DNA of 32,438 bases from an uncultured Bacilli bacterium. GTDB taxonomy: Bacteria > Bacillota_I > Bacilli_A > RF39 > UBA660. The notes under the pieces were generated by a model. The model saw only the letters and a list, made by a program, of their open reading frames with translations, searched no databases and was not told where the DNA came from. The stretch lies in NCBI GenBank assembly GCA_944332435.1, contig CALVJW010000013.1, positions 1-32,438 of the forward strand, read 5' to 3'. Of the stretch, positions 3,074 through 32,438 are shown in pieces. A program made the position numbers and the translations under genes. Position 1 is the first letter of the stretch; each line of letters starts with the position of its first letter.

Positions 3074-4165
3074 ATGAAGAAAGTAATTGTTAAATTAGAT
3101 GATGTTAAAAAGTCTTATGGAGATAAAGTAATTATTCCTAAATTAGATTTAGATGTTTATGAAGGAGAGTTTTTAACATTATTAGGTCCTAGTGGATGTG
3201 GAAAAACAACAACACTTCGAATGATTTCGGGAATGGAAAATGTAAGTAGTGGGCATATTTATCTAGATGGTGAAGATGTTACTAATGTTGATGCAACAAA
3301 GAGAGAAGTAAATACGGTTTTTCAAAACTATGCTTTATTTTCACATATGACGATTGAAAAAAATATTAGTTATGGTTTAAAAATTAAAAAAGTACCTAAT
3401 GATATAATTACAAAAAAAGTTAAAGAAATGTTAGAACTTGTGCAATTACAAGGCTATGAGAAACGAAAACCGTCACAACTATCTGGTGGGGAACAACAAC
3501 GAGTAGCAATCGCGAGGGCTCTTATTAATGAACCAAAAGTATTACTTTTAGATGAGCCTTTATCTGCCCTTGATTTTAAATTAAAAAAACAAATGCAAAT
3601 AGAGTTAAAACAACTGCAAAAAAAATTAGGGATTACTTTCATTTATGTAACCCATAATCAAGAAGAGGCATTAACGATGAGTGACCGTATCTTAGTATTC
3701 CGTGGAGGTGTGATAGAACAGGTGGGGACACCTAAAGAATTATATTTACACCCTAAAACAAGATTTGTTGCAGATTTTATCGGTGATTCAAATATCTTTG
3801 ATGGGATTATTACTAAGATAAGTGCTAGTAGTAATACAGCAGAGGTTACTATTAATGATACAGTGAAAGCAATTTTACCAAATAAAAATTATCAAGAGGG
3901 ACTTAAAATTTCTTTAATGTTGCGACCGGAAAATTTAAAATTAGTTGAAAAAGAAACTAGTAAAAATTGTATTCCTGTTAAAATAAAGGAAAATATCTAT
4001 GATGGAGCAACTTCAAAAGTAATAGCAATCACTAATTTTGGCAAAGAATTAAATATAACTTTAGATAGAGATGATAAGATATATCCTGTTAGAAGTACTT
4101 TATTTGTTAAATGGAAAATGGAAGATGCAGTGGTATTGAAAGGGAAAGAAGCAAATGAAGAATAG
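3074..4165 (+). CDS. potA: Spermidine/putrescine ABC transporter ATP-binding protein PotA
   Basis: This is the cytoplasmic ATPase that powers the polyamine importer PotABCD. The 363-residue length is typical. The nucleotide-binding domain shows Walker A GPSGCGKT at 38-45, Q-loop VFQNYALF, signature LSGGEQQRVAIARA from about residue 136, Walker B VLLLDEPLSALD near 157-168 and the switch histidine in YVTHNQEEAL near 190. The C-terminal third (about 240-363) fits a TOBE domain, with LRPENLKL, as in other polyamine and spermidine ATPases. It is the first gene of a tightly coupled four-gene operon and overlaps potB by 11 bases. The family assignment is firm, and the substrate is inferred from the complete PotABCD set and the agmatine/putrescine genes downstream. 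Confidence 0.94.
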   Translation: MKKVIVKLDDVKKSYGDKVIIPKLDLDVYEGEFLTLLGPSGCGKTTTLRMISGMENVSSGHIYLDGEDVTNVDATKREVNTVFQNYALFSHMTIEKNISYGLKIKKVPNDIITKKVKEMLELVQLQGYEKRKPSQLSGGEQQRVAIARALINEPKVLLLDEPLSALDFKLKKQMQIELKQLQKKLGITFIYVTHNQEEALTMSDRILVFRGGVIEQVGTPKELYLHPKTRFVADFIGDSNIFDGIITKISASSNTAEVTINDTVKAILPNKNYQEGLKISLMLRPENLKLVEKETSKNCIPVKIKENIYDGATSKVIAITNFGKELNITLDRDDKIYPVRSTLFVKWKMEDAVVLKGKEANEE

Positions 4166-5015
4166 TAATTCTATTTTTAAAAAAATTACTACGATTCCTT
4201 TAAAATTCTATGCGGGAATTTTAATTTTTCTTCCATTATTATATATCTTTATTCTTAGTTTCTTTCGCAATGATTATTACGGAGGAATCATCCCAGATTT
4301 TACTTTTGATAATTATAGGATGTTAATAGATGTTGTTTATTTAAAAGTTTTTCTTCAATCTTTTTTAATTGCTTTTATTACGACTTTTATTTGTATATGT
4401 ATTTCATATCCTTTTTGTCTGATTATTAAAACAAAGAAAGAAACAACACAAAAACTTATTATGACTTTTGTTATGATTCCCTTTTTAACTAATTCGTTAA
4501 TTCGTACTTATGGGTGGATTGTTTTACTACGTAAGAATGGAGTTATAAATCAATTTTTAATGGGAACACATTTAATTTCTTCCCCACTTTCCTTAATGTA
4601 TAATTATTTCGGAATTGTTATTGGAATGGTTTATACTTTATTACCATTTATGATTCTACCGTTAAATAGTGCTGTGTCAAAACTTGATGACTCATTATTG
4701 GATGCTTCTAAAGATTTAGGAGCTAATCGATTACAAACATTTTTTAAAGTTGTAGTGCCTGAAACGTTACCTGGATTATTTAATGGATCATTAATGGTAT
4801 TTATTCCTGCTATTGGTTTATTCTTTATTTCAGATATTCTAGGTGGCGGTAAATTGATGTTACTTGGAAATTTAATTAAAAATCAATTTTTAACGGCTCG
4901 TAATTGGCCATTTGGGGCTGCTATATCTATTACATTAATTATTATAACTTTCATATTTGTTAAGTTATATAAGAAAATCGGTGGTAAGATGGATGATTTA
5001 GGAGGTGGGTTATGA
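4155..5015 (+). CDS. potB: Spermidine/putrescine ABC transporter permease PotB
   Basis: This is a membrane permease subunit that pairs with PotC to form the polyamine channel. It has 286 residues and about six hydrophobic segments: one near 17-38, a cluster at 65-150 and more after 185. The cytoplasmic EAA loop that docks on the ATPase is visible as LLDASKDLGANRLQTFFKVV at about residues 177-196. The start at 4155 lies inside the end of potA and the stop overlaps the potC start (ATGA), so translation is coupled on both sides. A C-terminal run GGKMDDLGGG follows the last helix. The choice between B and C rests on gene order and on similarity to PotB-type permeases (RTYGWIVLL motif). Confidence 0.92.
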   Translation: MKNSNSIFKKITTIPLKFYAGILIFLPLLYIFILSFFRNDYYGGIIPDFTFDNYRMLIDVVYLKVFLQSFLIAFITTFICICISYPFCLIIKTKKETTQKLIMTFVMIPFLTNSLIRTYGWIVLLRKNGVINQFLMGTHLISSPLSLMYNYFGIVIGMVYTLLPFMILPLNSAVSKLDDSLLDASKDLGANRLQTFFKVVVPETLPGLFNGSLMVFIPAIGLFFISDILGGGKLMLLGNLIKNQFLTARNWPFGAAISITLIIITFIFVKLYKKIGGKMDDLGGGL

Positions 5016-5800
5016 AAAAGAAATATTTGCATAATCTGTTTTTACTCTTGGTTTTTGCTTTTCTTTATTTACCCATCATTGTTCTAGTTATTTTTTCTTT
5101 TAACAGTTCATCATTAAATATTGTCTTTGAGCAATTTACATTTCGTTGGTATCATGTATTGTTAGAAAATAGGAGTTTATTAGAAGCTTTTATGAATACT
5201 ATGATTGTAGCTTTTACAAGTACAATTGTATCTACCATTATTGGGACAATTTCAGCAATAGGAATTAAAAAATATAACTTTATTGGTAAAGAGTTCATTC
5301 AATCTTTATTATATATACCAATTGTTATACCAGAAATAGTACTTGGAATCTCCTTATTATCAATTTATACATTATTTAGATTAGATTTATCATTAGTTAC
5401 GCTTATTATTGCGCATATAACGTTCTCAATTCCATTTGTAATTATTAGTGTTAGAACTATTTTAGATAGTTTACCATCTAACTTGGAAGATGCGAGTAGT
5501 GATTTAGGGGCAAATAAATTTAAAACATTCTGGTATGTAACATTACCATCCATTATGCCAGGTATTACTTCTGGAGCACTTCTTGCCTTTACTCTTTCTT
5601 TAGATGATGTAATTATTAGTTATTTTACTGCCGGACCAGATAGTAATACATTACCACTTAAGATATATTCAATGATTAAAACAGGAATAACACCAGATGT
5701 TAATGCGCTGTCGGCTCTTATTTTAGTTGTGACAATTATTATTTTGATGACTAGTACAGTATTACAGCTTCGCAAATTAAGAAAGGAGACAGAATTATGA
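5012..5800 (+). CDS. potC: Spermidine/putrescine ABC transporter permease PotC
   Basis: This is the second membrane subunit of the polyamine importer (262 residues, about six transmembrane helices). The N-terminal helix with LPIIVLVIFSFNSS is characteristic of PotC/PotI permeases. The EAA loop reads EDASSDLGANKFKTFWYVTL around residues 157-177, and LSLDDVIISYF follows, another conserved PotC segment. A strong ribosome-binding site, GGAGGTGG, lies just before the ATG, inside the end of potB. The stop codon TGA overlaps the potD start. It acts with PotB in the cytoplasmic membrane. Confidence 0.93.
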   Translation: MKKKYLHNLFLLLVFAFLYLPIIVLVIFSFNSSSLNIVFEQFTFRWYHVLLENRSLLEAFMNTMIVAFTSTIVSTIIGTISAIGIKKYNFIGKEFIQSLLYIPIVIPEIVLGISLLSIYTLFRLDLSLVTLIIAHITFSIPFVIISVRTILDSLPSNLEDASSDLGANKFKTFWYVTLPSIMPGITSGALLAFTLSLDDVIISYFTAGPDSNTLPLKIYSMIKTGITPDVNALSALILVVTIIILMTSTVLQLRKLRKETEL

Positions 5801-6822
5801 AAAAGATTGTTATTTTATTAGTAATTATATTCTTAGTAACTGGCTGTACTTCTAAAAATGATGCGGGAGTTGTAAATATTTTAAACTGGTCATCTTATAT
5901 ACCTGATTCAGTTATTCTTGATTTCGAAAAGGAAACTGGTATTAAAGTAAATTATGGTACTTATTCATCTAACGAAGAATGTTTAGCAAAGATTCAATCG
6001 GCTAAACCGGGGACTTATGACTTAATTTTTCCTAGTGATTATATGATTGAATTAATGAAAAAGCGTAATTTATTAGAACCATTAGATCGTGAAAAAATAT
6101 TAAATTGGAATAATATTGCAGATAATTATAGAAGGTTAGATTATGATAAAGAAAATAAATATTCGCTACCATTTTTGGCAGCTACGACTGTAATTGTAGT
6201 AAATCGAGAACATATTAAAGATACAATTACTAGTTATCAAGATTTATTGAAACCTGAATATAAAAATAATATTGTGTTACTTGATGATCAGAGAATTGTT
6301 ATCGGTATGGCTCTCCAAGCTTTAGGTTATGATATGAATGAAACTAATAAAGAAGCATTAAAAGATGCTAAAGAGTGGCTACTTAAGTTAAAAGAAAATG
6401 TTAAGGCCTTTGATAGTGATAGTCCTAAAACTTTTTTTCTAACTAACGAAGTAGACATCGGGGTAATGTGGAATGCGGAAGCAGCTATTGCCAAAAATAA
6501 AAATCCTAATTTAGAAGTTATTTATCCTAAAGAAGGGGTTGCTATTAGTATTGATAATTTTGCTTTGCCTAAAGGAGCTAAGCATAAGGAACAAGCCTAT
6601 CTTTTTATTGATTATATTTTAAGACCAGAAGTGATGCAAGAAATTATAGAAGATTATCCTTATAAAAATGTTAATCAAGCAACGAATCTATTATTATCAT
6701 CAAATTATTTAAATAATCCAGCATCGAATATTCCAGATTATGTTATAAAAAATGGACATTTTGTCAATAATATAGGTGATTCAATCTTAGATTATGATAA
6801 ATTATGGGCAGAAATCAAATGA
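5797..6822 (+). CDS. potD: Spermidine/putrescine-binding lipoprotein PotD
   Basis: This is the extracellular substrate-binding subunit of the polyamine importer, tethered to the membrane as a lipoprotein. The first 17 residues form a signal peptide ending in the lipobox LVTGC, with cysteine at position 17 as the lipidation site. The mature part has the PotD-type opening VNILNWSSYIPDSV, then YDLIFPSDYMIELM and WNAEAAIA, all conserved in polyamine-binding proteins. It has 341 residues, the usual size. It ends the potABCD operon; there is no terminator before the agmatine promoter 20 bases on, so read-through into that module is possible. The ligand could be spermidine, putrescine or agmatine and cannot be settled from motifs alone. 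Confidence 0.92.
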   Translation: MKKIVILLVIIFLVTGCTSKNDAGVVNILNWSSYIPDSVILDFEKETGIKVNYGTYSSNEECLAKIQSAKPGTYDLIFPSDYMIELMKKRNLLEPLDREKILNWNNIADNYRRLDYDKENKYSLPFLAATTVIVVNREHIKDTITSYQDLLKPEYKNNIVLLDDQRIVIGMALQALGYDMNETNKEALKDAKEWLLKLKENVKAFDSDSPKTFFLTNEVDIGVMWNAEAAIAKNKNPNLEVIYPKEGVAISIDNFALPKGAKHKEQAYLFIDYILRPEVMQEIIEDYPYKNVNQATNLLLSSNYLNNPASNIPDYVIKNGHFVNNIGDSILDYDKLWAEIK

Positions 6823-6842
6823 TGCGTTATGGAATATAGAGA

Positions 6843-6871
6843 TTGAAAATTAAAAAACATTGTGCTATGAT
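6843..6871 (+). promoter_or_regulatory. Promoter of the agmatine deiminase module
   Basis: -35 TTGAAA (6843-6848), exact 17-base spacer, -10 TATGAT (6866-6871) preceded by TG one base upstream (extended -10). The predicted transcript starts only a few bases before the strong ribosome-binding site GGAGGAGG (6879-6886), which gives a very short leader. Confidence 0.7.
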
Positions 6872-6892
6872 TATAATAGGAGGAGGATTAGA

Positions 6893-7879
6893 ATGGCAAG
6901 AGTAAAAGATTTTGTGGATACACAAGATTTCACAAAAGAAGAATTGCTTGATATTATGCATTTAGGATTGCTTATTAAGGAAAACATAAAACAAGGTTAT
7001 CCATTAAATGTGTTATATCATAAATCATTAGGGATGATTTTTGAACAATCATCAACTAGAACAAGAGTTTCTTTTGAAACAGCCATGACACAATTGGGAG
7101 GTCATGCGCAATATTTGGCACCAGGGCAAATTCAATTAGGTGCGCACGAATCATTATCTGATACGGCTCGTGTATTATCACGACTTGTTGATATTTTAAT
7201 GGCTCGTGTTCAAAAACATGAAAGTGTGTTTGAACTTGCAAAATATGCTGATATTCCTGTTATTAACGGAATGAGCGATTATAATCACCCAACGCAAGAA
7301 ATGGGAGATATTACAACAATGTTTGAACATTTACCAGCTGGTAAACGTTTAGAAGATTGTAAAGTTGTTTTCGTTGGTGACGCTACTCAAGTTTGTGCAT
7401 CATTAATGATGATTGTTACAAAACTTGGTGGACATTTTGTTCAATTTGGGCCTAAAGGTTTCCAATTAAGAGAAGAACATATTAAAATTGCTGAAGAAAA
7501 CTGTAAAAAATCAGGTGGTAGTTTCTTAATTACAGAGGATGAAGATGAAGCGTTAAAAGATGCTGACTTTATCTACACTGATGTTTGGTATGGCTTATAT
7601 GAAGCAGAATTATCGGAAGAAGAGAGAATGAAAATTTTCTATCCAAAATATCAAGTCGATATGGATATGATAAAGAAAGCCTCTCCAACTGTTAAATTTA
7701 TGCACTGTCTTCCAGCAACAAGAAATGAAGAAGTAACAGATGAGGTAATTGATTCTGAATATTCAATCGTAATCGATCAAGCAGAAAATAGGTTAACTGC
7801 TATGCGAGCACTACTTGTTTATTTCATGGATAAGAGAGATGAAACTGTTGCAATTTGCAACAAAAATTTAGGGAGATAG
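6893..7879 (+). CDS. ptcA: Putrescine carbamoyltransferase
   Basis: This enzyme phosphorolyses N-carbamoylputrescine to putrescine plus carbamoyl phosphate, the second step of the agmatine deiminase pathway. I chose ATG 6893 (328 residues) after the ribosome-binding site GGAGGAGG; the open frame extends upstream to a TTG at 6860 but that part overlaps the promoter. The carbamoyl-phosphate site is STRTR at 54-58, HPTQE at 132-136 and HCLPA at 271-275. The segment [10 protein letters not shown] at 74-83 replaces the ornithine-binding motif and is typical of putrescine carbamoyltransferases such as the Enterococcus faecalis enzyme, as are [18 protein letters not shown] and a C-terminal extension helix. 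The neighbours aguD, aguA and aguC confirm the assignment and distinguish it from arcB at 12.8 kb. Confidence 0.95.
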
Positions 7880-7882
7880 TAT

Positions 7883-9274
7883 ATGGAAAAAGAAAAAAAG
7901 AAATTTAAGTTATTAGATGCGATTTTAGCAACTGTATGTATTACGTTAGTTGCAGAATCCGTTACTCCATCAGCAGCGATTGGTAATTCACAATATTTTT
8001 GGTGGATTTTGTTAATCATCGCGTTTTGCTTACCTTACGGATTAATTTCTGCTGAACTTGGTAGTACTTTTCCAAGCGATGGTGGAATGTATGACTGGGT
8101 AAAACGCGCATTTGGAAAAAAATGGGCAGCTCGTGTTGCTTGGAATTATTGGATTAACTTTCCACTTTGGATTGCATCACTTGCTGTTGCGGTAACAGAT
8201 GTTATTGCTGGTATTTTTGAAATAGAGTTAGGTTTAATTTGGCTAATTGTATTACAACTTGGCTATACTTGGCTAGTTAGTATTCTAGGATGTTTCCGTA
8301 TTGGAGAAAACAAGTGGATTGTTAATATTGGGACTTTATTTAAAATTTTATTTATGGTAGGCCTTGGGTTACTTGGAATTTACGTTTTTGTTAAAACAGG
8401 AGAAAGTGCTAACCCAATTCATAGTGTGGCAGATTTATTTCCAAGTTTTGACTTAGCAGGGTTATCATTTATATCAGTTATTATTTTTAACTTTTTAGGA
8501 TTTGAAGTTGTAGCAACTTATGCTGATGATATGGAAAATCCTAAAAAAGAAATACCAAAAGCACTAATTGTTGGTGGAGCTTTAATGGCAATATTTTACT
8601 TATTACCAGCAACAGGAGTTAATATTGCTATGCCAATTAAAGAAGCTGAATCAGCAGGAATTACTGAAAGTTTCGCAATATTGCTATCTAGTTTAGGAGT
8701 GTCAAGTGGTATTATTAGAACTATTGTAATTACTGTAGGTTTAATGTTTATCTATACAATGGTTGCTAATATCGTATCTTGGTCATTTGGGGTTAACTCA
8801 GTGGCTAAATATTCTGCAGAAGATGGTGGACTTCCAAAAATATTTACTAAAACTAATAAAGAAGGCGTACCATATATGGCATCAATTATTAATGGTGTTG
8901 TTGCTACTGTCATTGTTATTGTTGGTATTGTCCTTGGAGAAATATCTGAAAGTGCTAGTAACTTATTTTGGACATTCTTCTCATTTAGTCTAGTAACTCT
9001 ATTAATTAGTTATATTCCATTATTCCCAGCGTTCTTAAAATTAAGAAAAATTGATAAAACGGAAAGAGCATATAAAGTTCCAGGAGGAAAAATAATAACT
9101 TATTTAATGACTTATATCCCATTTGTTTTATTAATTGCGGGAGTAGTATTTACTTTATTTATTGATTTTACAAAAGAATCAATTATGGCTAATTTACCAC
9201 TTATTGTAGGGGTTGCAGTATCATTTATAATTGAAGAAATTTTAGTACTTAGTGTTAAAAAGGAGAATAAATAG
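7883..9274 (+). CDS. aguD: APC-family amino acid/amine antiporter, probable agmatine/putrescine exchanger
   Basis: This 463-residue integral membrane protein has about twelve hydrophobic segments and the APC-superfamily pattern: an unwound first helix region with SVTPSAAIG, then [20 protein letters not shown] after the sixth helix, which is typical of glutamate/GABA-type and agmatine/putrescine antiporters. It begins 3 bases after ptcA (ribosome-binding site AGGGAG) and ends just before aguA. The module order carbamoyltransferase, antiporter, deiminase, carbamate kinase is the same as in the Enterococcus agu cluster, where the antiporter takes up agmatine and expels putrescine. The transport specificity is inferred from that context. 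Confidence 0.85.
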
Positions 9275-9275
9275 A

Positions 9276-10379
9276 ATGAAAAGATTGAATAGTGTTCCTA
9301 AAGCCGATGGTTTTAGAATGCCTGGGGAATTTGAAGAACATAGAGGAACATATATTATTTGGCCAGAAAGACCTGACAACTGGCGTTTGGGTGGAAAACC
9401 TGCTCAACACGTATTTGTACAAGTAGCAAATACGATTGCAAAATATGAACCAGTAACTGTTTGTGTTAGTAAAGAACAATATTCTAACGCAAGACATTTA
9501 TTAGCTGATAATGTAAGAGTTGTAGAAATGAGTAATAATGACTCATGGATTCGTGACTGTGGGGCTACTTGTGTTGTAAATGATCAAGGAGAAGTACGTG
9601 GAGTAGATTGGAAATTTAATTCATGGGGTGGACTTGTTGATGGACTTTATTTTCCATGGGATCAAGATGATAAAGTAGCACAAAAAATGTGTGAATTAGA
9701 AGGATTTGATTCATATCGCTTAGATGATTTTGTATTAGAAGGTGGATCAATTCATGTTGATGGAGAAGGAACTTTAATGGTAACAGAAGAATGTTTGTTA
9801 TCAGAAGGACGTAATCCACATATGACAAAAGAGGAAATTGAAAAGAAATTATGTGATTATCTAGGATGTGAAAAAGTATTATGGATTAAAGAAGGAATCT
9901 ATAATGATGAAACGAATGGACATGTTGACAATATGTGTAATTTCGTTCGTCCTGGTGTTGTTGCGCTTGCTTGGACAGATGATGAAAACGATCCACAATA
10001 TGCAAGAAGTAAAGCTGCTTATGATTATCTAACAAGCGAGACAGATGCAAAAGGGCGTAAATTAGAAGTACATAAAATTTTAACGCCTAAACCAATTTTA
10101 ATTACAAAAGCAGAAAGTTTAGGAGTAGATGCGATTGATGGAACACTTCCAAGACAAGAAGGAGACCGTCTAGCAGCATCTTATGTGAATTATTATACTG
10201 GAAATGGATTTGTTGCCGTACCAGTATTCAATGATCCACATGATCAATTAGCAATTCAAAAGTTACAAGAATTATATCCTGGCCGTGTAATTGAACCAAT
10301 TTATGCGAGAGAAATCTTATTAGGTGGTGGAAATATCCACTGTATTACACAACAAGTGCCAAGAGGAAACAGAAAATAG
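9276..10379 (+). CDS. aguA: Agmatine deiminase
   Basis: This enzyme hydrolyses agmatine to N-carbamoylputrescine and ammonia. I chose ATG 9276 (367 residues) because AAGGAG at 9260-9265 precedes it; the frame continues upstream into the aguD end, but no ribosome-binding site supports a start there. Conserved family segments are RMPGEFEEH near the N terminus, [20 protein letters not shown] (~87-97), [13 protein letters not shown] (~154-166), [10 protein letters not shown] (catalytic histidine, ~218) and [11 protein letters not shown], with catalytic Cys356. This is a pentein-fold guanidino hydrolase distinct from the arginine deiminase at 11.6 kb. It ends at TAG, whose G begins the aguC GTG start. 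Confidence 0.96.
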
Positions 10380-11311
10380 TGAGTAGAATTGTGATTGCTT
10401 TTGGAGGAAATGCCTTAGGTAACAATCCAAAAGAACAACAAAAATTAATTAAGAATGCAGTAAAAAATGTCGTGCCTTTAGTAAAACAGGGGCACGATAT
10501 TTTGTTAAATCATGGAAATGGACCACAAGTAGGAGTTATTAATCTTGCATTCGAAGATTCTTATGAAAATAAAGATATTCCTTATATGCCATTTCCAGAA
10601 TGCACTGCGATGAGTCAAGGATATATTGGTTATCATTTACAAAAAGGATTACGTGATGTATTAGAAAAAGAAAAAATTCAAAAAGAAATTGTGGCGTTAG
10701 TAACGCAAGTGATAGTAGATTCTAATGATCCATCTTTTCAAAATCCAACGAAACCAGTAGGACCATTTTATACGAAAGAAGTTGCACAAACTTTAATGAA
10801 ACAAACAGGTGAAATATATATTGAAGATTCAGGACGAGGTTATCGCAAAGTGGTAGCAAGCCCTGAACCATTAGAAATTGTTGAATTAAATAGCATTCGC
10901 ACATTATTAGAAACTGGTAGAATTGTTATTGCAGGAGGTGGTGGAGGAATTCCTGTCTTTAAGCAAGGAATTGATAAAAAAGCAACAGCTGTAATTGATA
11001 AAGACTTAGTAAGTTCACTGATGGGAAGAAAGTTAAATGCTGATATCCTAGTGATTCTTACTAATATTAAACAAGCGGAACTTTTTTATGGAACCGATCA
11101 TGCGATAAAACTTGGAAGGGTATCCGTTCAAGAAGTTTTACAATATATTGAAGAAGGCCATTTTGCTAAGGGAAGTATGTTACCTAAAATAAAAGCGGCA
11201 GTTCGTTTTGTAAAAGGAACAGATCATCGGGCAATTATTACATCATTAGAAAATTTAAGTAATGGGCTAAAAGGAATAGAGGCAACAGAAATATACGATA
11301 AAAAGTATTAA
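10379..11311 (+). CDS. aguC: Carbamate kinase of the agmatine module
   Basis: This enzyme transfers phosphate from carbamoyl phosphate to ADP, yielding ATP, ammonia and CO2; it is the energy-conserving step. The 310 residues begin with the amino acid kinase fold motif VIAFGGNALG, followed by HGNGPQVG (~45-52), [12 protein letters not shown] (~76-87), VASPEP (~158-163) and the glycine-rich IAGGGGGIPV (~181-190). The start is GTG at 10379 overlapping the aguA stop as TAGTG, with a purine-rich ribosome-binding site (AGAGGA) about eleven bases upstream, so it is probably coupled to aguA. A second carbamate kinase (arcC) lies 2.5 kb downstream; the two are clearly related but quite diverged. No terminator follows. 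Confidence 0.95.
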   Translation: MSRIVIAFGGNALGNNPKEQQKLIKNAVKNVVPLVKQGHDILLNHGNGPQVGVINLAFEDSYENKDIPYMPFPECTAMSQGYIGYHLQKGLRDVLEKEKIQKEIVALVTQVIVDSNDPSFQNPTKPVGPFYTKEVAQTLMKQTGEIYIEDSGRGYRKVVASPEPLEIVELNSIRTLLETGRIVIAGGGGGIPVFKQGIDKKATAVIDKDLVSSLMGRKLNADILVILTNIKQAELFYGTDHAIKLGRVSVQEVLQYIEEGHFAKGSMLPKIKAAVRFVKGTDHRAIITSLENLSNGLKGIEATEIYDKKY

Positions 11312-11336
11312 TTTTCTAACTAGTAAAAAATAACTG

Positions 11337-11365
11337 TTTACATCTATATTGTTAAGTGTTATGAT
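11337..11365 (+). promoter_or_regulatory. Promoter upstream of the small ORF and arcABCD
   Basis: -35 TTTACA (11337-11342), exact 17-base spacer, -10 TATGAT (11360-11365) with TG at 11357-11358 (extended -10). This is the only clear promoter between aguC and arcA, and it points into the 44-codon ORF, so that ORF and the arc genes probably share a transcript. Confidence 0.7.
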
Positions 11366-11394
11366 AATAATAGAAGATAGTAGTGAGGTATGAC

Positions 11395-11529
11395 ATGAAA
11401 AATTTGATGGTGTTGGTAGGACTATTATTAGTAATGATACTGAAAAATAAAAAAGATAATATAAGGTTACAAGGAAAGTTTGTGCCTTTTTTCTGTTTCA
11501 CGAAGCAAATACTTGGCCGTGGAAGCTAA
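11395..11529 (+). CDS. Small membrane peptide ORF (44 aa) between the agmatine and arginine modules
   Basis: This is an ORF too short for routine calling. ATG 11395 follows the ribosome-binding site AGTGAGG (11382-11388) at a 6-base spacing, 30 bases after a well-formed promoter. The peptide begins MKNLMVLVGLLLVMIL, a single hydrophobic helix, followed by a strongly basic segment KNKKDNIR and a tail FVPFFCFTKQILGRGS. It ends in TAA 49 bases before arcA. A one-helix membrane peptide or a leader peptide for arc expression are both possible. The 3' part (11492-11529) can form two overlapping short hairpins. I recognise no family. The support is position and start signals only, with no homology. 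Confidence 0.45.
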   Translation: MKNLMVLVGLLLVMILKNKKDNIRLQGKFVPFFCFTKQILGRGS

Positions 11530-11577
11530 GTATAAAAAATAGGTTACTAGTAATAGTAGATTAGAAAGGGAGGAATT

Positions 11578-12813
11578 ATGATACAAGTAACAAGTGAAAT
11601 TAAACCATTGAAAAAAGTATTACTTCATAGACCTGGGAAAGAATTATTAAATTTAACACCAGATACGTTGGAACGTCTATTATTTGACGATATTCCTTAT
11701 TTACCTGATGCACAACAAGAACACGATGAATTTGCATCTGTTTTAAGAGAAAACGGTGTTGAAGTAGTATATTTAGAAGACTTAATGAGTGAAGTATTAA
11801 GCTTAAGCGAAGAAATTAAAGAAAAATTTATTCGTCAATTTATGTATGAAGCAGGAATTCGTACACCAAAATATAAAACATTAGTTTTTGATTATTTAAA
11901 TAATATGAAAGATATGAAAGAACTTGTTTTAAAAACAATGGAAGGAATTCAAATTGGTGAATTAGATTCTAAAAAGTGGGTATTTGAAAAGTCTTTAGTA
12001 GATTTAGTAAGTGAAGAATCTAAATTTATTGCAGAACCAATGCCAAACTTATATTTTACACGTGATCCATTTGCTAGTGTTGGACATGGTGTGACATTAC
12101 ATAAGATGTATTCTGAAACAAGAAGTAGAGAAACCATTTACGCAGAATATATTTTTGAATATCATCCAGATTTTAAAGATCAAACAGTGAAATATTATGA
12201 TCGATATTTACCACATCATATGGAAGGTGGAGATGTTTTAAATTTAAATGAACATATTTTAGCAGTAGGTTATTCACAAAGAACAAGTGCGGAAGCAATT
12301 GATCAATTAGCTAAAAATTTATTTAGAGATAAAGATTGTAAAATTGATACTGTTTTAGCGTTTAATATTCCAAGTAGTCGTGCATTTATGCACTTGGATA
12401 CTGTATTTACACAAATAGATTATGATAAATTTACTTATCATCCAGGTATTATGGATACCCTTCAAGTATTTGAAATTACAGAGGGAGATGTTCCTGATAC
12501 TGATGAAGATTTAAATGTAAAAGAAATTAATGATACATTAGAAAATATTTTAAGTCATTATCTAGAAAGAAAGATTACACTTATTCCATGTGCCGGTGGA
12601 GATAAAGTTGCTGCGGAAAGAGAACAATGGAATGATGGATCTAATACATTATGTATTGCCCCAGGAGTTGTAGTTGTATATGATAGAAATAATTTAACAA
12701 ACGATACATTGAGAAAATATGGTATTAAAGTATTAGAAATTCATGGAGCAGAATTATCAAGAGGACGTGGGGGTCCAAGATGTATGAGTATGCCATTAGA
12801 AAGGGAATTGTAA
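11578..12813 (+). CDS. arcA: Arginine deiminase
   Basis: This enzyme hydrolyses L-arginine to citrulline and ammonia, the first step of the arginine deiminase pathway, which supports ATP supply and acid resistance. The 411 residues match the family length. Visible landmarks are the N-terminal [13 protein letters not shown] (~10-22), [10 protein letters not shown] (~160-169, substrate-binding region), MEGGDVLNL (~214-222), [10 protein letters not shown] (catalytic histidine, ~265-275) and the C-terminal [10 protein letters not shown] with nucleophile Cys402. A strong ribosome-binding site (GGGAGG) precedes ATG 11578. The gene leads arcB by 1 base. Together with arcBC and the YfcC-type antiporter it forms a complete pathway. 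Confidence 0.97.
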
Positions 12814-12814
12814 T

Positions 12815-13801
12815 ATGAACTTATCAGGAAGAGATTTCTTAAAATTACTAGACTATTCAAAAGAAGAAATTTTATATTTAATTGATTTAGCAAAAGTATT
12901 AAAAAGAAAAAAGCAAGATGGAGAATCACATCGATATTTAAAAGGAAAAAATGTTGTATTACTATTTGAAAAAGATTCCACTAGAACTCGATGTGCATTT
13001 GAAGTGGGTGCAATGGATCTAGGAATGGGTGTTACTTATTTAGGACCAACTGGTTCACAAATGGGAAAAAAAGAAAGTATTGCAGATACGGCAAGAGTAC
13101 TTTCTCGTATGTATGACGGAATTGAATATCGTGGATTTGAACAAACAATTGTTGAAGAATTGGCAAAAAATTCTTCTGTACCGGTTTGGAATGGTCTTAC
13201 AAACGAGTTTCATCCAACACAAATGCTTGCTGATATTATGACTGTTAGTGAAAATTTTGACACCTTAGAAGGTAGAAAATTGGTATTCTTAGGTGATGGT
13301 AGAAATAATGTTGCCAATTCTCTTATGGTAATATGTTCTAAATTAGGAATTAACTTTACTTGTTGTGCTCCTAATCAATTATTTCCAAATGCAGAATTAA
13401 TTTCACAATGTAAAACATTTGCAGCACAAAATCATTCAGAAATTGTATTAACAGAAAATGTAGAAGAAGCAGTAACAAATGCTGATGTGTTATATACAGA
13501 TGTATGGGTATCTATGGGAGAAGATGCTAGTATATGGAAAGAACGAATTGATTTATTACAACCTTATCAAGTAAATAAGCGAGTAATGAGTATGGCAAAT
13601 CCAAATGCGATTTTCTTACATTGTTTACCTTCTTTTCATGATTTAAATACAAAAATTGGAAAGGAAATATATGACAAGTTTGGCTTAGAAGAGATGGAAG
13701 TATCAAACGAAGTATTTGAATCTAGCCAATCTAAAGTTTTTGACCAAGCAGAAAATCGTTTACATACGATTAAAGCAGTCATGTATGCAACATTGAAATG
13801 A
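12815..13801 (+). CDS. arcB: Ornithine carbamoyltransferase, catabolic
   Basis: This enzyme converts citrulline and phosphate to ornithine and carbamoyl phosphate. It has 328 residues. The carbamoyl-phosphate signature STRTR is at 55-59, HPTQ at 133-136 and HCLP at 269-272. The loop around residues 75-88 reads [14 protein letters not shown], the ornithine-type version, in contrast to the [10 protein letters not shown] segment of the putrescine enzyme at 6.9 kb. It starts 1 base after arcA (ribosome-binding site AAAGGGA) and its TGA stop overlaps the arcC start by 4 bases. It is paralogous to ptcA but diverged. The catabolic direction is inferred from operon context. Confidence 0.96.
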
Positions 13802-14739
13802 AAAAAAGAATTGTTATTGCCTTAGGTGGAAATGCCTTAGGAAATACCCCAAAAGAACAATTAATGTTAGTAAAAAAGACAGCAAAAAATATTGTTGATT
13901 TAGTAGAAGAAGGTTATGACATTGTAGTCACTCATGGAAATGGTCCACAAGTAGGAATGATTAATTTAGCAATGCAAGTATCACATGAAGAGGAAAATAC
14001 CCCAGATATGCCTTTTGCAGAGTGTGGCGCTATGAGTCAAGGGTATATTGGATACCATTTACAACAGTCGATTCAACAAGAATTAGTGAAACGTCATAAA
14101 AGAAAAAATTGTATTACCGTTATTACACAAGTGTTGGTAGATTCAAAAGATAAAGCATTTAAAAATCCAACGAAACCAATTGGTAATTTTTATACAAGAG
14201 AAGAAGCAATTAAAATAGCAAATGAAAATGGTTACATTATGAAAGAAGATGCTGGTCGTGGTTATCGTAGAGTTGTAGCAAGTCCAGAACCAGTCAAAAT
14301 TATTGAAGGAAAAGTAATTAACGAATTATTGTCCAAAGGAAATATTGTAATTGCAGCAGGTGGAGGAGGAATTCCTGTTGTAAAAAGAAGAAATGCCTAT
14401 TATGGAGTGGATGCTGTAATTGATAAAGATAAAACAAGCGCACGTTTAGCACTTGATTTGAAAGCAGATATTTTCTTAATTTTAACGGCAGTAGATAAAG
14501 TATGTATTCATTTTAATACAAAAAATGAAACAGCATTAGATATATTAACAGTGAAAGAAGCAAAAGAATATATCAAACAAAAAGAGTTTAAAGAAGGTAG
14601 TATGTTACCAAAAGTAGAAGCATGTTTAAACTTCGTAAGCCATAAAAGTAATGGTCAAGCCATTATTACATCTTTAAGTAAAGCAAGAGATGCGTTACTT
14701 GGTAAAAATGGTACCTTAATTGTTAGAAGGGAAAAATAG
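13798..14739 (+). CDS. arcC: Carbamate kinase of the arginine module
   Basis: This is the second carbamate kinase in the window, making ATP from carbamoyl phosphate released by ArcB. Of 313 residues, the N terminus reads [12 protein letters not shown], then [35 protein letters not shown] and [14 protein letters not shown], and the C-terminal region has [11 protein letters not shown]. The start overlaps the arcB stop (ATGA), so translation is coupled. It aligns by eye with aguC along its whole length, with the same landmark motifs and many substitutions between them. The duplication is therefore not recent, and each kinase stays with its own module. Confidence 0.96.
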
Positions 14740-14740
14740 T

Positions 14741-16189
14741 ATGGAAAAACAAAAGAAGAAGAAGAAAGGCTTTCTGACGGCTTTCTCAATCATTTTTATT
14801 CTAATCTTTGCTTTAGGTCTTCTTTCTCATTTTTTACCTAAAGCAGAATTTGTCGATGGAGAAATCGTCAATGGTAGTGGAGTAGTAGGAGCTTCCTTAT
14901 CACAAATTTTATTATCTCCTATATTAGGATTTGAAAATGCAATTGATGTTTGTATTTTCGTACTTATTCTAGGTGGTTTTTTAGCAATTGTTAATAGAAC
15001 AGAAGCATTAGAAACGGGAATTAAAGTATTAGTTAAAAAATTAAAAGGACGTGAATTAGTTTTAATTCCAATCTTAATGTTCTTATTCTCAATTGGAGGA
15101 ACAACTTATGGAATGCTAGAAGAAACAGTAGGATTCTATGCCTTATTATCAGCAACTATGGTAATGGCTGGAATGGATACTTTAGTTGCATCTGCAATTG
15201 TATTATTAGGGGCTGGATCAGGGGTACTAGGTTCAACGATTAACCCATTTGCTGTGGGAGCAGCAGTTAGTGCCTTACCAGAAGGAGTAGATGTTAACCA
15301 AGGATTGATTATAGGATTAGGATTAGTATTATGGATTACAACTTATCTTATTTCAACATTCTTTGTTATGCATTATGCAAGAAAAGTAATTAAGAAAAAA
15401 GGCTCTACATTCTTATCTTTAAGAGAAAGAAAGAATATGGAAGCAGAGTATGGGGGACATACTTCTGTTAATTTAGATAAAGTAACATTAAGTAAAAAGC
15501 AAAAAATTACATTAGTTTTATTTGCACTTACATTTATCGTTATGATTGTAGGATTTATCCCATGGGGTGAATTTGGAATTAATATTTTTGATAAAACTAC
15601 AGGTTGGTTAACAGGATCTCCACTTGGATCTTGGTATTTCTATGAAGCAGCATTATGGTTCTTGATTATGTCTGTTTTAATAGGTTTTGTTGGTCGTACT
15701 GGAGAAAAACAATTTGTTGATACATTTATTGATGGTGCTGACGATATGGTTGGAGTAATATTGATTATTGCTATTGCTCGTGGAGCATCCGTATTGATGC
15801 AAGGAACTTACCTAGATAATTTTATTATCTATAATGCAGCTGAAGCACTTAGAAATGTGCCAATTATTGTCTTTACACCATTTAACTATTTAATTCACGT
15901 AGTATTATCTATTTTAGTACCATCAAGTTCAGGATTAATGACATTATCAGCACCAATTGTTGGTCCACTTGCTGACCAATTGGGTTATAGTGTAGAAACA
16001 ACTGTTATGACATTAGTTGCTTCTAATGGACTTGTTAACTTAATTACTCCAACTTGTGGAGCAATTATGGGTGGTTTAGCACTCGCTAAAGTAGAATATT
16101 CTACTTGGGCTAGATGGGCTGCTAAAGTAGTACTTACCATTGCCATTGTTAACATTGTAATATTAACCGTAGCGATGATGATTTTATAA
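14741..16189 (+). CDS. arcD: YfcC-family membrane antiporter, probable arginine/ornithine exchanger
   Basis: This 482-residue polytopic membrane protein has ten or more hydrophobic helices and a lysine-rich start MEKQKKKKKG. It fits the YfcC/C4-dicarboxylate anaerobic carrier family, which includes the streptococcal type of ArcD, and not the APC-type ArcD of Pseudomonas or lactococci. Characteristic stretches are GGFLAIVNRTEALE, GGTTYGMLEE, GAGSGVLGSTINPFA and VPSSSGLMTLSAPIVGPLAD. I chose ATG 14741, after the ribosome-binding site AGAAGGGA and the arcC stop; the frame extends 21 bases further without start signals. As the last gene of the arc operon it most likely exchanges arginine for ornithine. 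That specificity is inferred from context. Confidence 0.85.
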   Translation: MEKQKKKKKGFLTAFSIIFILIFALGLLSHFLPKAEFVDGEIVNGSGVVGASLSQILLSPILGFENAIDVCIFVLILGGFLAIVNRTEALETGIKVLVKKLKGRELVLIPILMFLFSIGGTTYGMLEETVGFYALLSATMVMAGMDTLVASAIVLLGAGSGVLGSTINPFAVGAAVSALPEGVDVNQGLIIGLGLVLWITTYLISTFFVMHYARKVIKKKGSTFLSLRERKNMEAEYGGHTSVNLDKVTLSKKQKITLVLFALTFIVMIVGFIPWGEFGINIFDKTTGWLTGSPLGSWYFYEAALWFLIMSVLIGFVGRTGEKQFVDTFIDGADDMVGVILIIAIARGASVLMQGTYLDNFIIYNAAEALRNVPIIVFTPFNYLIHVVLSILVPSSSGLMTLSAPIVGPLADQLGYSVETTVMTLVASNGLVNLITPTCGAIMGGLALAKVEYSTWARWAAKVVLTIAIVNIVILTVAMMIL

Positions 16190-16640: not shown

Positions 16641-16654
16641 AATATTATATTTGA

Positions 16655-16848
16655 TGTGGAAAAATATAAGTAATAATATAACTGGTAAAGAGAAAACTAA
16701 TGGTGGATGAAAATTAGTCAAGGTTAGATTATGAAATACAGATTTGGAGTCAAAACGTAAATTCGCGTTAAGAATGAAGAGCATAAGTATTTATGAAATA
16801 AGGTGGTACCGCGGGGAGACTCGTCCTTATATCTAAATACTTTTTTTT
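16655..16848 (+). promoter_or_regulatory. Tyrosine T-box riboswitch controlling deoC-tyrS
   Basis: A T-box leader reads tRNA charging: uncharged tRNA pairs with the specifier codon and the T-box bulge and stabilises an antiterminator. The T-box sequence GGTGGTACCGCGG is at 16802-16814, with the acceptor-pairing UGGU at 16804-16807, which suits tRNA-Tyr with discriminator A. In stem I a GAGA motif lies near 16690, the distal hairpin has CTAAT/ATTAG arms around GGTGGATGAAA, and the specifier loop holds GAAATACA with a tyrosine TAC codon at 16737-16739. The terminator pairs AAGTATTTA (16785-16793) with TAAATACTT (16834-16842), is helped by ATAAGG/CCTTAT, and ends in a T-run to 16848. tyrS downstream agrees with the specifier. 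Confidence 0.93.
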
Positions 16849-18988: not shown

Positions 18989-19996
18989 ATGGCAAAGGTT
19001 ATGTATCTTGTAAAAAGAATTAAAAATATGAATTATACAAAGATGTTTGAAGTTGCAAAGAAGGTATCACAAAAAACAAATCAAAATTATATGAAAGTGT
19101 TAATGGATATTATTGGGTGTGGACTTAAATATCAAGCTGGGTATCATGATTATTTAGAATTTGAATTTTATTTATTAAATAAAGAGGAAAGAAAGACATA
19201 TTTAACAAGAGGAATTAATAATGCAATTATAAAAAAATATAATAATAAAGATTCTTTTTATAAATTTGATGATAAAATTGAATTTAATAAAAAGTTTTCT
19301 CCATATTTAGGAAGAGATTGGGTTTATTTAAGGGAGATAAAAGGCGATGAATTCGTTAGTTTCTTAAAAAAGAAGAAAGCCATTATTGTAAAACCAGTAG
19401 ATGGTGAAGGTGGCGTAGGAATAGAAAAAATCAATATCAATAGTAAAACAGATGGAAAAAAACTATATCGTCAGCTTCGTAAATCAAATCAAGTGTTAGT
19501 GGAAGAATTTATTGCACAACATCCAGATATGAATGGATTGTATAAAAATGCCGTAAATACTTTGCGTTTATTTACTTTTATTAAAGATGGGAAAGTTACA
19601 TATTTACAAGGAATTTTAAAAATTGGAAATGGTGGAGTCGTTGATAATTTTTCTAGTGGTGGTATGTATACGTTTGTAAATCAAAATGGAAAAGTAATTG
19701 CTCCTGCGATTGATAAAGATGATAATGTTTATGAAAAGCATCCAAAAACAAAAACAGATATTGTTGGTTTTCAAGTTCCAATGTTTAAAGAAGCTATAAA
19801 ATTAGTGAAAGAAGCAGCAAAAGAAGTTCCAGAAATTGGTTATGTTGGATGGGATGTAGCAATTGGAAAAGAAAAGCCAATGATTATTGAAGGAAATTGT
19901 TTTCCAGGTGTGTTTCAACTTCGCCCAAGTTTTTCAAAAGATAAACAAGGAATTTTACCAAAATATCAAAAAGTTATGGATATTAAAACAAAATAA
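18989..19996 (+). CDS. ATP-grasp protein of the sugar-transfer-associated type
   Basis: This 335-residue protein with an ATP-grasp ligase fold matches the family often found near glycosyltransferases (sugar-transfer-associated ATP-grasp). It starts with a basic helical segment (MAKVMYLVKRIKNMNY). The ATP-binding lysine lies in IVKPVDGEGGVGIEKI (Lys135), the second ATP contact in VLVEEFIAQHPDMN (~171-184), an NTLRLFTFIKDGK segment follows (~190-203), and the metal-binding end is IIEGNCFPGVFQLRP (~297-311). ATP-grasp enzymes join a carboxylate to an amine through an acyl phosphate; the acceptor here is unknown. It has its own promoter and a bidirectional terminator, and no glycosyltransferase or capsule genes are nearby. 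Confidence 0.75.
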   Translation: MAKVMYLVKRIKNMNYTKMFEVAKKVSQKTNQNYMKVLMDIIGCGLKYQAGYHDYLEFEFYLLNKEERKTYLTRGINNAIIKKYNNKDSFYKFDDKIEFNKKFSPYLGRDWVYLREIKGDEFVSFLKKKKAIIVKPVDGEGGVGIEKININSKTDGKKLYRQLRKSNQVLVEEFIAQHPDMNGLYKNAVNTLRLFTFIKDGKVTYLQGILKIGNGGVVDNFSSGGMYTFVNQNGKVIAPAIDKDDNVYEKHPKTKTDIVGFQVPMFKEAIKLVKEAAKEVPEIGYVGWDVAIGKEKPMIIEGNCFPGVFQLRPSFSKDKQGILPKYQKVMDIKTK

Positions 19997-32043: not shown

Positions 32044-32073
32044 AAAGTTAGAATAGAGGGAGTGGATAAAAGA

Positions 32074-32438
32074 ATGAATCAAAAAAGATATCAAGGATTT
32101 ACGTTAATTGAACTCTTAGCAGTCATTGTCATACTGGCAGTTATCGCTTTAATCGCAACACCGCTTATTATGAATGTCATTAATGATGCGAAAAAAGGAG
32201 CTGCAAGAGATGCAGGATATAACGTCATAAAAGCAGGAGAACTAATGGCAGCAAATGAAGGAATGGATGGTGCAACGCCACCATATCATTATGATGAAAC
32301 AAGTAATTTAGATATGAAAGGAACAATTCCAACAAAATTTACTTTAGATATTAATGAAGACATGGATACACAACTAAAAGCATGGTTAAATGGATACTGT
32401 GTCGTAAAAGAATATGGAAATGAAACAGTAACGATTGA
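32074..32438 (+). CDS. Type IV pilin-like / type II secretion pseudopilin protein (3' truncated by window edge)
   Basis: The frame is open from ATG 32074 to the end of the window (121 codons so far) after the ribosome-binding site GAGGGAGTGG. The N terminus is a class III (type IV prepilin) signal: short basic leader MNQKRYQG, cleaved after Gly8, then FTLIELLAVIVILAVIALIA with the methylated Phe and the conserved Glu5 of the mature protein. The following region, LIMNVINDAKKGAARDAG, is the usual amphipathic alpha helix. The globular part contains a PPYHYDETSNLDM segment and one cysteine so far. The subtype (competence pseudopilin, major pilin or secreted variant) cannot be decided without the C terminus and neighbours. 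Confidence 0.85.
   Translation, partial: MNQKRYQGFTLIELLAVIVILAVIALIATPLIMNVINDAKKGAARDAGYNVIKAGELMAANEGMDGATPPYHYDETSNLDMKGTIPTKFTLDINEDMDTQLKAWLNGYCVVKEYGNETVTI

Follow-up and report, generated by a model that had tools for sequence, protein, structure and literature searches.

Our preferred reading of the 44-codon frame preceding the arginine deiminase gene arcA is that it is an upstream open reading frame (uORF) within a genus-specific, structured 5' leader of approximately 200 nt on the arcA-argF-arcC-transporter transcript, acting in cis if it acts at all; from sequence comparison and RNA folding models, we give this reading a probability of about 0.48. Within the window (the whole 32,438-nt stretch of DNA analyzed here), the uORF runs on the plus strand from an ATG at 11395 to a TAA at 11527-11529 and encodes MKNLMVLVGLLLVMILKNKKDNIRLQGKFVPFFCFTKQILGRGS; initiation at a GTG in the same frame (11383) would lengthen the product to 48 aa. 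It lies in a 266-nt gap with a carbamate kinase gene (10379-11311) on the 5' side and arcA on the 3' side, and 48 nt separate its stop from the arcA start. The initial annotation had described a 44-aa frame at this position as the first coding unit of the arginine transcript, and both points held. Comparisons were made between the window species (G000) and a congener (G001; GTDB record CALVRW010000020.1, "uncultured Bacilli bacterium"), and the features are as follows.

11337-11365, plus strand: extended -10 promoter, TTTACA-N17-TATGAT with TG (TTTACA starts at 11337, TATGAT ends at 11365)
11365-11384, plus strand: presumed initial transcribed bases TAATAATAGAAGATAGTAGT, placed from the -10
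11376-11429, plus strand: P0, predicted with RNAfold, a 5' helix (11376-11384 with 11421-11429) around the uORF Shine-Dalgarno (SD) and start, with an inner helix (11391-11396 with 11410-11415)
11385-11388, plus strand: uORF SD, GAGG, 6 nt 5' of the ATG, identical in the congener
11395-11529, plus strand: uORF, 44 codons plus TAA, 73% amino acid identity to the congener
11463-11488, plus strand: predicted hairpin P2, a 10-bp stem with a single bulged U, paired with a probability of 0.97 and 0.94 in the two species
11509-11533, plus strand: predicted hairpin P3, 9 bp, covering the uORF end and stop codon, pair probability 0.98 and 0.99
11544-11559, plus strand: segment (inverted repeat I2) predicted to pair with 11421-11434 or to form a small local hairpin
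11563-11573, plus strand: arcA SD, AGAAAGGGAGG, from sequence and comparison with the congener
11578-12813, plus strand: arcA, arginine deiminase (NCBIfam TIGR01078, 534.5 bits, above the cut-off of 489.1)
12815-13801, plus strand: argF, downstream of arcA, same order in the congener
13798-14739, plus strand: arcC, downstream of argF, same order in the congener
14741-16189, plus strand: YfcC-like transporter (YfcC model, 170.5 bits, below the cut-off of 500), same order in the congener

The uORF has both a promoter and an SD of its own in the arcA 5' leader, as expected of a regulatory uORF. The extended -10 promoter with a 17-bp spacer and the well-spaced ribosome-binding site (RBS) proposed initially were both confirmed: the string TTTACA-17-TGTTATGAT matches at 10 of 12 positions and is the top promoter-like site within 10379-12813, and in the congener the -10 region is identical and the -35 reads TTTACT. 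Judged from the -10, the transcript probably starts at about 11368-11372. The uORF itself is probably translated. Dinucleotide shuffling of the 266-nt gap produced an ATG frame of at least 44 aa in 1.0% of trials, and such a frame with an SD-like motif in 0.1%; because the initial annotation had scanned many intergenic regions, the latter figure is corrected to a few percent, and the rarity is suggestive, not decisive.

The distribution of the uORF is narrow. A protein search found a credible peptide homologue in only one of 60 relatives, the congener (E = 5e-16), and when GTDB contigs were probed with an ArcA fragment, the congener alone among the matches listed carried the uORF. No peptide homologue was found in IMG/VR, the peptide matched nothing in Pfam or NCBIfam, and a search of 386 family genomes with the leader DNA returned low-complexity matches only, beyond the two species themselves. 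The arcA gene is present in 69 of those 386 genomes, and among the 65 arcA leaders compared (2 of the genus and 63 outside it) none of the 63 others held such an ORF, their 5' UTRs being shorter or the gap missing altogether. On conservation of the frame, a check that had been suggested initially, promoter, RBS, start, stop, and frame are all kept in the one congener, and no homologue adjoins arcA outside the genus. By this comparison the uORF leader is genus-specific, most arcA genes of the family doing without one, and the most economical account is that the genus gained approximately 150 nt between the arcA transcript start and the arcA RBS, producing a leader that folds and carries the uORF. 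The carbamate kinase gene, the uORF, and arcA come immediately after infB in the congener, which at this locus lacks the window's polyamine-transporter and agmatine-deiminase genes; because the uORF is nonetheless kept before arcA, it belongs with arcA and not with the agmatine genes. The polyamine transporter and agmatine deiminase block itself, which lies between infB and the carbamate kinase gene in the window only (3074-10379, compared with 8697-8843 of locus L100), has by this comparison been gained or lost between the two species.

Substitutions between the two species fall differently in the uORF than in its neighbors. The uORF has 16 substitutions, 4 synonymous and 12 non-synonymous (dN 0.124, dS 0.167, dN/dS 0.74), whereas infB, arcC1, arcA, argF, arcC2, and the transporter have dN/dS values of 0.03-0.09 (dS 0.26-0.66, dN 0.01-0.06), with 0.07 for the arc transporter. 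Amino acids in the uORF thus change several-fold faster than in the neighboring genes, and synonymous sites change more slowly. Purifying selection at an omega of 0.2 or lower is rejected by so few synonymous changes (P = 0.012) and an omega of 0.3 only weakly (P = 0.07), so that values of 0.3-0.5 remain compatible, and the observed ratio is not distinguishable from 1. The codon-level conservation on which the initial annotation had proposed to test the peptide was not seen. Codon usage of the uORF (-4.03) equals that of open shuffles (-4.03) and differs from that of the genes (-3.58, sd 0.14).

At the level of DNA, identity between the two species is 88% in the uORF, 27/28 in the 5' UTR, and 42 of 45 aligned bases in the segment after the ORF, compared with 50% in the arcD-rbfA intergenic region, our yardstick, which is barely alignable. 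The leader is therefore conserved above both an ordinary intergenic region and the synonymous sites of the genes, and the 135 nt of the uORF are free of indels while its flanks have two. From this comparison, the amino acid sequence of the uORF appears largely not to be under selection: the bases are conserved and the amino acids are not. The initial annotation had held that a frame lost in close relatives, or kept only as DNA, would tell against the peptide; the frame was not lost, but conservation of the DNA above the codons comes close to the second outcome. A minus-strand ORF at 11352-11501 was also considered and set aside, as the third codon of its frame is a stop in the congener.

The same figures bear on a rather unlikely alternative, in which the genus gained an AT-rich spacer of approximately 150 nt before arcA that happens to be open behind an SD-like GAGG, and is perhaps translated, with neither peptide nor fold of any consequence. 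In simulations, a frame of this kind stayed open after 16 random substitutions with P of 0.33-0.47, and because 33-47% of simulated frames stay open, the intact frame in the congener is weak evidence for a selected uORF. A dN/dS compatible with 1, codons like those of open shuffles, and absence from the 63 other family leaders all fit such an incidental frame. Conservation of the leader DNA above its neutral yardsticks does not, however, and neither do the lack of indels between flanks that have them, the rarity of such an ORF with an SD among shuffles, and the avoidance of paired bases by substitutions described below.

The initial annotation had also proposed a small membrane peptide, possibly an accessory of the exchanger. 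A young and rapidly changing small membrane protein, or a peptide resembling a signal peptide, such as one that serves the downstream transporter, would agree with the promoter and RBS, with the retention of start, stop, and frame, and with conserved peptide blocks (MVLV.LLLV, KNKKDN, RLQG, FVPFF, and KQILGRG). The hydrophobic stretch that had been noted does exist, at residues 4-16 with a mean Kyte-Doolittle value of 3.33, and a 13-aa peak of this height occurs in only 0.03% of shuffles. At 13 residues, however, it is short of the roughly 18-20 expected of a membrane span, and 13% of open shuffles attain its mean over 19 aa (1.39). Given that 12 of the 16 changes are non-synonymous and the ratio is far from that of the transporter, that third positions are unusually conserved and codons unlike those of genes, and that the peptide matches no Pfam or NCBIfam family and has no homologue next to arcA beyond the genus, we consider this explanation improbable, and the proposal of an exchanger accessory was not borne out. 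With just one other species known to carry the uORF, and with amino acids that have varied freely, it more probably belongs to a folded leader RNA with a regulatory role than encodes a conserved small membrane protein.

Folding of the leader agrees in part between the two species. P3 has an unchanged stem, and P2 differs by a single change from A-U to G-U. P0 folds at -9.5 in G000 and -11.1 in G001 when the stretch is taken in isolation with RNAfold, but in the whole-leader ensemble it is favored only in G000 (0.75, compared with 0.08 in G001). The whole-leader folds accordingly differ, with P0 in G000 and a long-range pairing to the segment before the arcA SD in G001; this pairing (11421-11434 with 11544-11557) was rejected as a conserved state, having a probability of 0.73 in G001 and 0.00 in G000. 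Across P0, P2, and P3, all 34 base pairs remain standard in both species, two of them through one-sided changes, in a comparison of two sequences only. Both leaders fold slightly better than their shuffles, with modest z-scores (-2.1 and -2.9).

Substitutions in the leader avoid the paired bases. None of the 56 bases paired in both species (pair probability >0.8 in each) is substituted, compared with 20 of 155 elsewhere (Fisher, 0.0015; 0.009 under rotation of the substitution pattern), whereas with the fold of G001 alone the avoidance is not significant at most thresholds, including >0.8. Conservation of the leader bases suggests a cis-acting role at arcA. In the G000 ensemble the SD of arcA is mostly unpaired, and thus no simple off-state is evident in that species. 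A candidate anti-SD, CCUUUUUUCU, was rejected because it pairs with the arcA SD at just 0.02 in free ensembles, reaching 0.20 (G000) and 0.65 (G001) only under a constraint that keeps the first half of the ORF unpaired. Rfam covariance models for riboswitches, T-boxes, and other leaders gave nothing credible at 11250-11650, and the Rfam scan found no T-box in the arcA leader. Apparent copies of P2 plus P3 elsewhere were also discarded, as a covariance model of the two hairpins gave 22 further matches in the 386 genomes (E <= 0.1 per genome), below the approximately 39 expected by chance.

Metabolite-sensing arrest peptides such as SpeFL are encoded by uORFs that precede amino acid catabolic genes. 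TnaC is described as a peptide of the same kind (PMC8429421). A leader peptide sensing arginine or ornithine, through stalling at Arg codons or through a nascent chain with bound ligand, could control arcA in a similar way. The uORF shares with TnaC and SpeFL its place ahead of amino acid catabolic genes and opens a transcript for arginine catabolism; neither Arg codon (AGG24, CGT42) differs in the congener, nor does the C-terminal QILGRG, and P3 extends over the last part of the ORF. Unlike those systems, the peptide sequence varies between the two congeners. There are only two Arg codons in 44 (4.5%), close to the 3.5% of the window's genes and not in a run, so the codon excess of a trp/his-type attenuation leader is absent. 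No terminator-like site was found in 10379-12813, and hence no intrinsic terminator with an exclusive antiterminator. Attenuation by arginine starvation would also have the wrong sense, as it would induce a catabolic operon just when arginine runs short.

Two mutually exclusive hairpins had been suggested across 11492-11529, and both can form in this species, the main fold at -10.8 and the alternative at -6.7 with the main hairpin forbidden. As a switch the pair does not survive the comparison: in the congener the alternative is gone (-0.6) and the hairpin at 11509-11533 is kept and stronger. Taken with the codon counts and the lack of a terminator, this makes arginine sensing by the peptide very improbable, and the earlier suggestion of a leader that senses arginine or charged tRNA found no support in the codons.

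Under our preferred reading of a structured leader with an embedded uORF, ribosomes would begin on the uORF inside or beside P0, traverse P2 and P3, and terminate within P3 at a stop 48 nt from the arcA start. Translation of the uORF may in this way shift leader folding and so affect how efficiently the arcA mRNA is translated or how stable it is. A model for this is mgtQ, an intergenic uORF before Salmonella mgtB whose translation frees the downstream RBS (PMC8092293), and by analogy translation here could rearrange the leader ahead of arcA. Both have a small ORF ahead of an operon gene with overlapping stem-loops, but mgtQ has 8 codons and a demonstrated function, whereas the ORF here has 44 codons, is predicted only, and is followed by an arcA SD that is not clearly sequestered in G000. 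Translational attenuators of the ermCL type similarly have a structured leader in which a uORF with its own SD precedes the main ORF (PMC10219788); the ermCL peptide is conserved and drug-stalled, unlike the arcA-leader peptide, which is unconstrained and without a known ligand. Control of arc operons by ArgR/AhrC, ArcR/FNR-like, and CcpA proteins (e.g., PMC5452487 and PMC5039431) has the same target but works through protein regulators at the promoter. Nothing on point for a leader peptide or uORF before arcA appeared in the literature searched, which covered a minority of subscription papers.

A fuller version of this reading is doubtful: that P0, P2, P3, and the embedded uORF form a new cis-regulatory leader, evolved in one genus of small-genome Bacilli, that gates arginine deiminase synthesis, with translation of the uORF and not its peptide setting the fold before arcA. 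If the leader works, an energy-yielding arginine operon would have acquired a uORF leader recently and in a limited lineage, and the gain of a regulatory uORF would be easy to trace, as relatives carry arcA without it. The locus is a modest case, useful as an example of a small ORF whose DNA, and not its protein, is conserved.

Several further features were seen at arcA loci outside the genus. One other long arcA leader (L068, in G327) has a possible 20-aa uORF with a TTG start (MEITVKKFLLCELFSSILTK) directly after AATAGAGG, unrelated in sequence. Nine loci in other genera (L033, L037, L040, L045, L070, L080, L089, L095, and L096) have a short hairpin at the extreme 5' end of the arcA mRNA, alike in shape and different in sequence (e.g., TAGTAG-GGGAA-CTACTA, GATAATAG-GGAGG-CTATTATC, and TAATAGCC..GGCTATTA). 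The differences are apparently compensatory, and the hairpin could be an mRNA-stabilizing or operator element.

An ATAATAG- or ATAGTAG-like motif is frequent where transcription is presumed to begin, a few bases past the -10, in promoters of this lineage, including those of ptcA (before 6893), arcA (11360-11373), the gene at 18989, and ezrA (before 21632), and many arcA promoters across the family. As ATARTAG also occurs at ptcA, ezrA, and other window promoters, it was rejected as specific to arcA and is probably a general start-site feature. A whole-genome count of the ATAATAG-like pattern gave no excess over the reversed control (14 versus 19); the motif may be limited to real promoters, or may reflect composition. 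Elsewhere in the window, a T-box leader precedes deoC-tyrS (16648-16831, plus strand; GGTGGTACCGCG; 91.7 bits, E = 5.4e-21), which a default Rfam scan misses because its score falls just under the gathering score of 93. At the end of the window of this small-genome Bacilli assembly, positions 32062-32436 contain the first part of a prepilin resembling type IV pilins (GFTLIELLAVIVILAVIALIATP).
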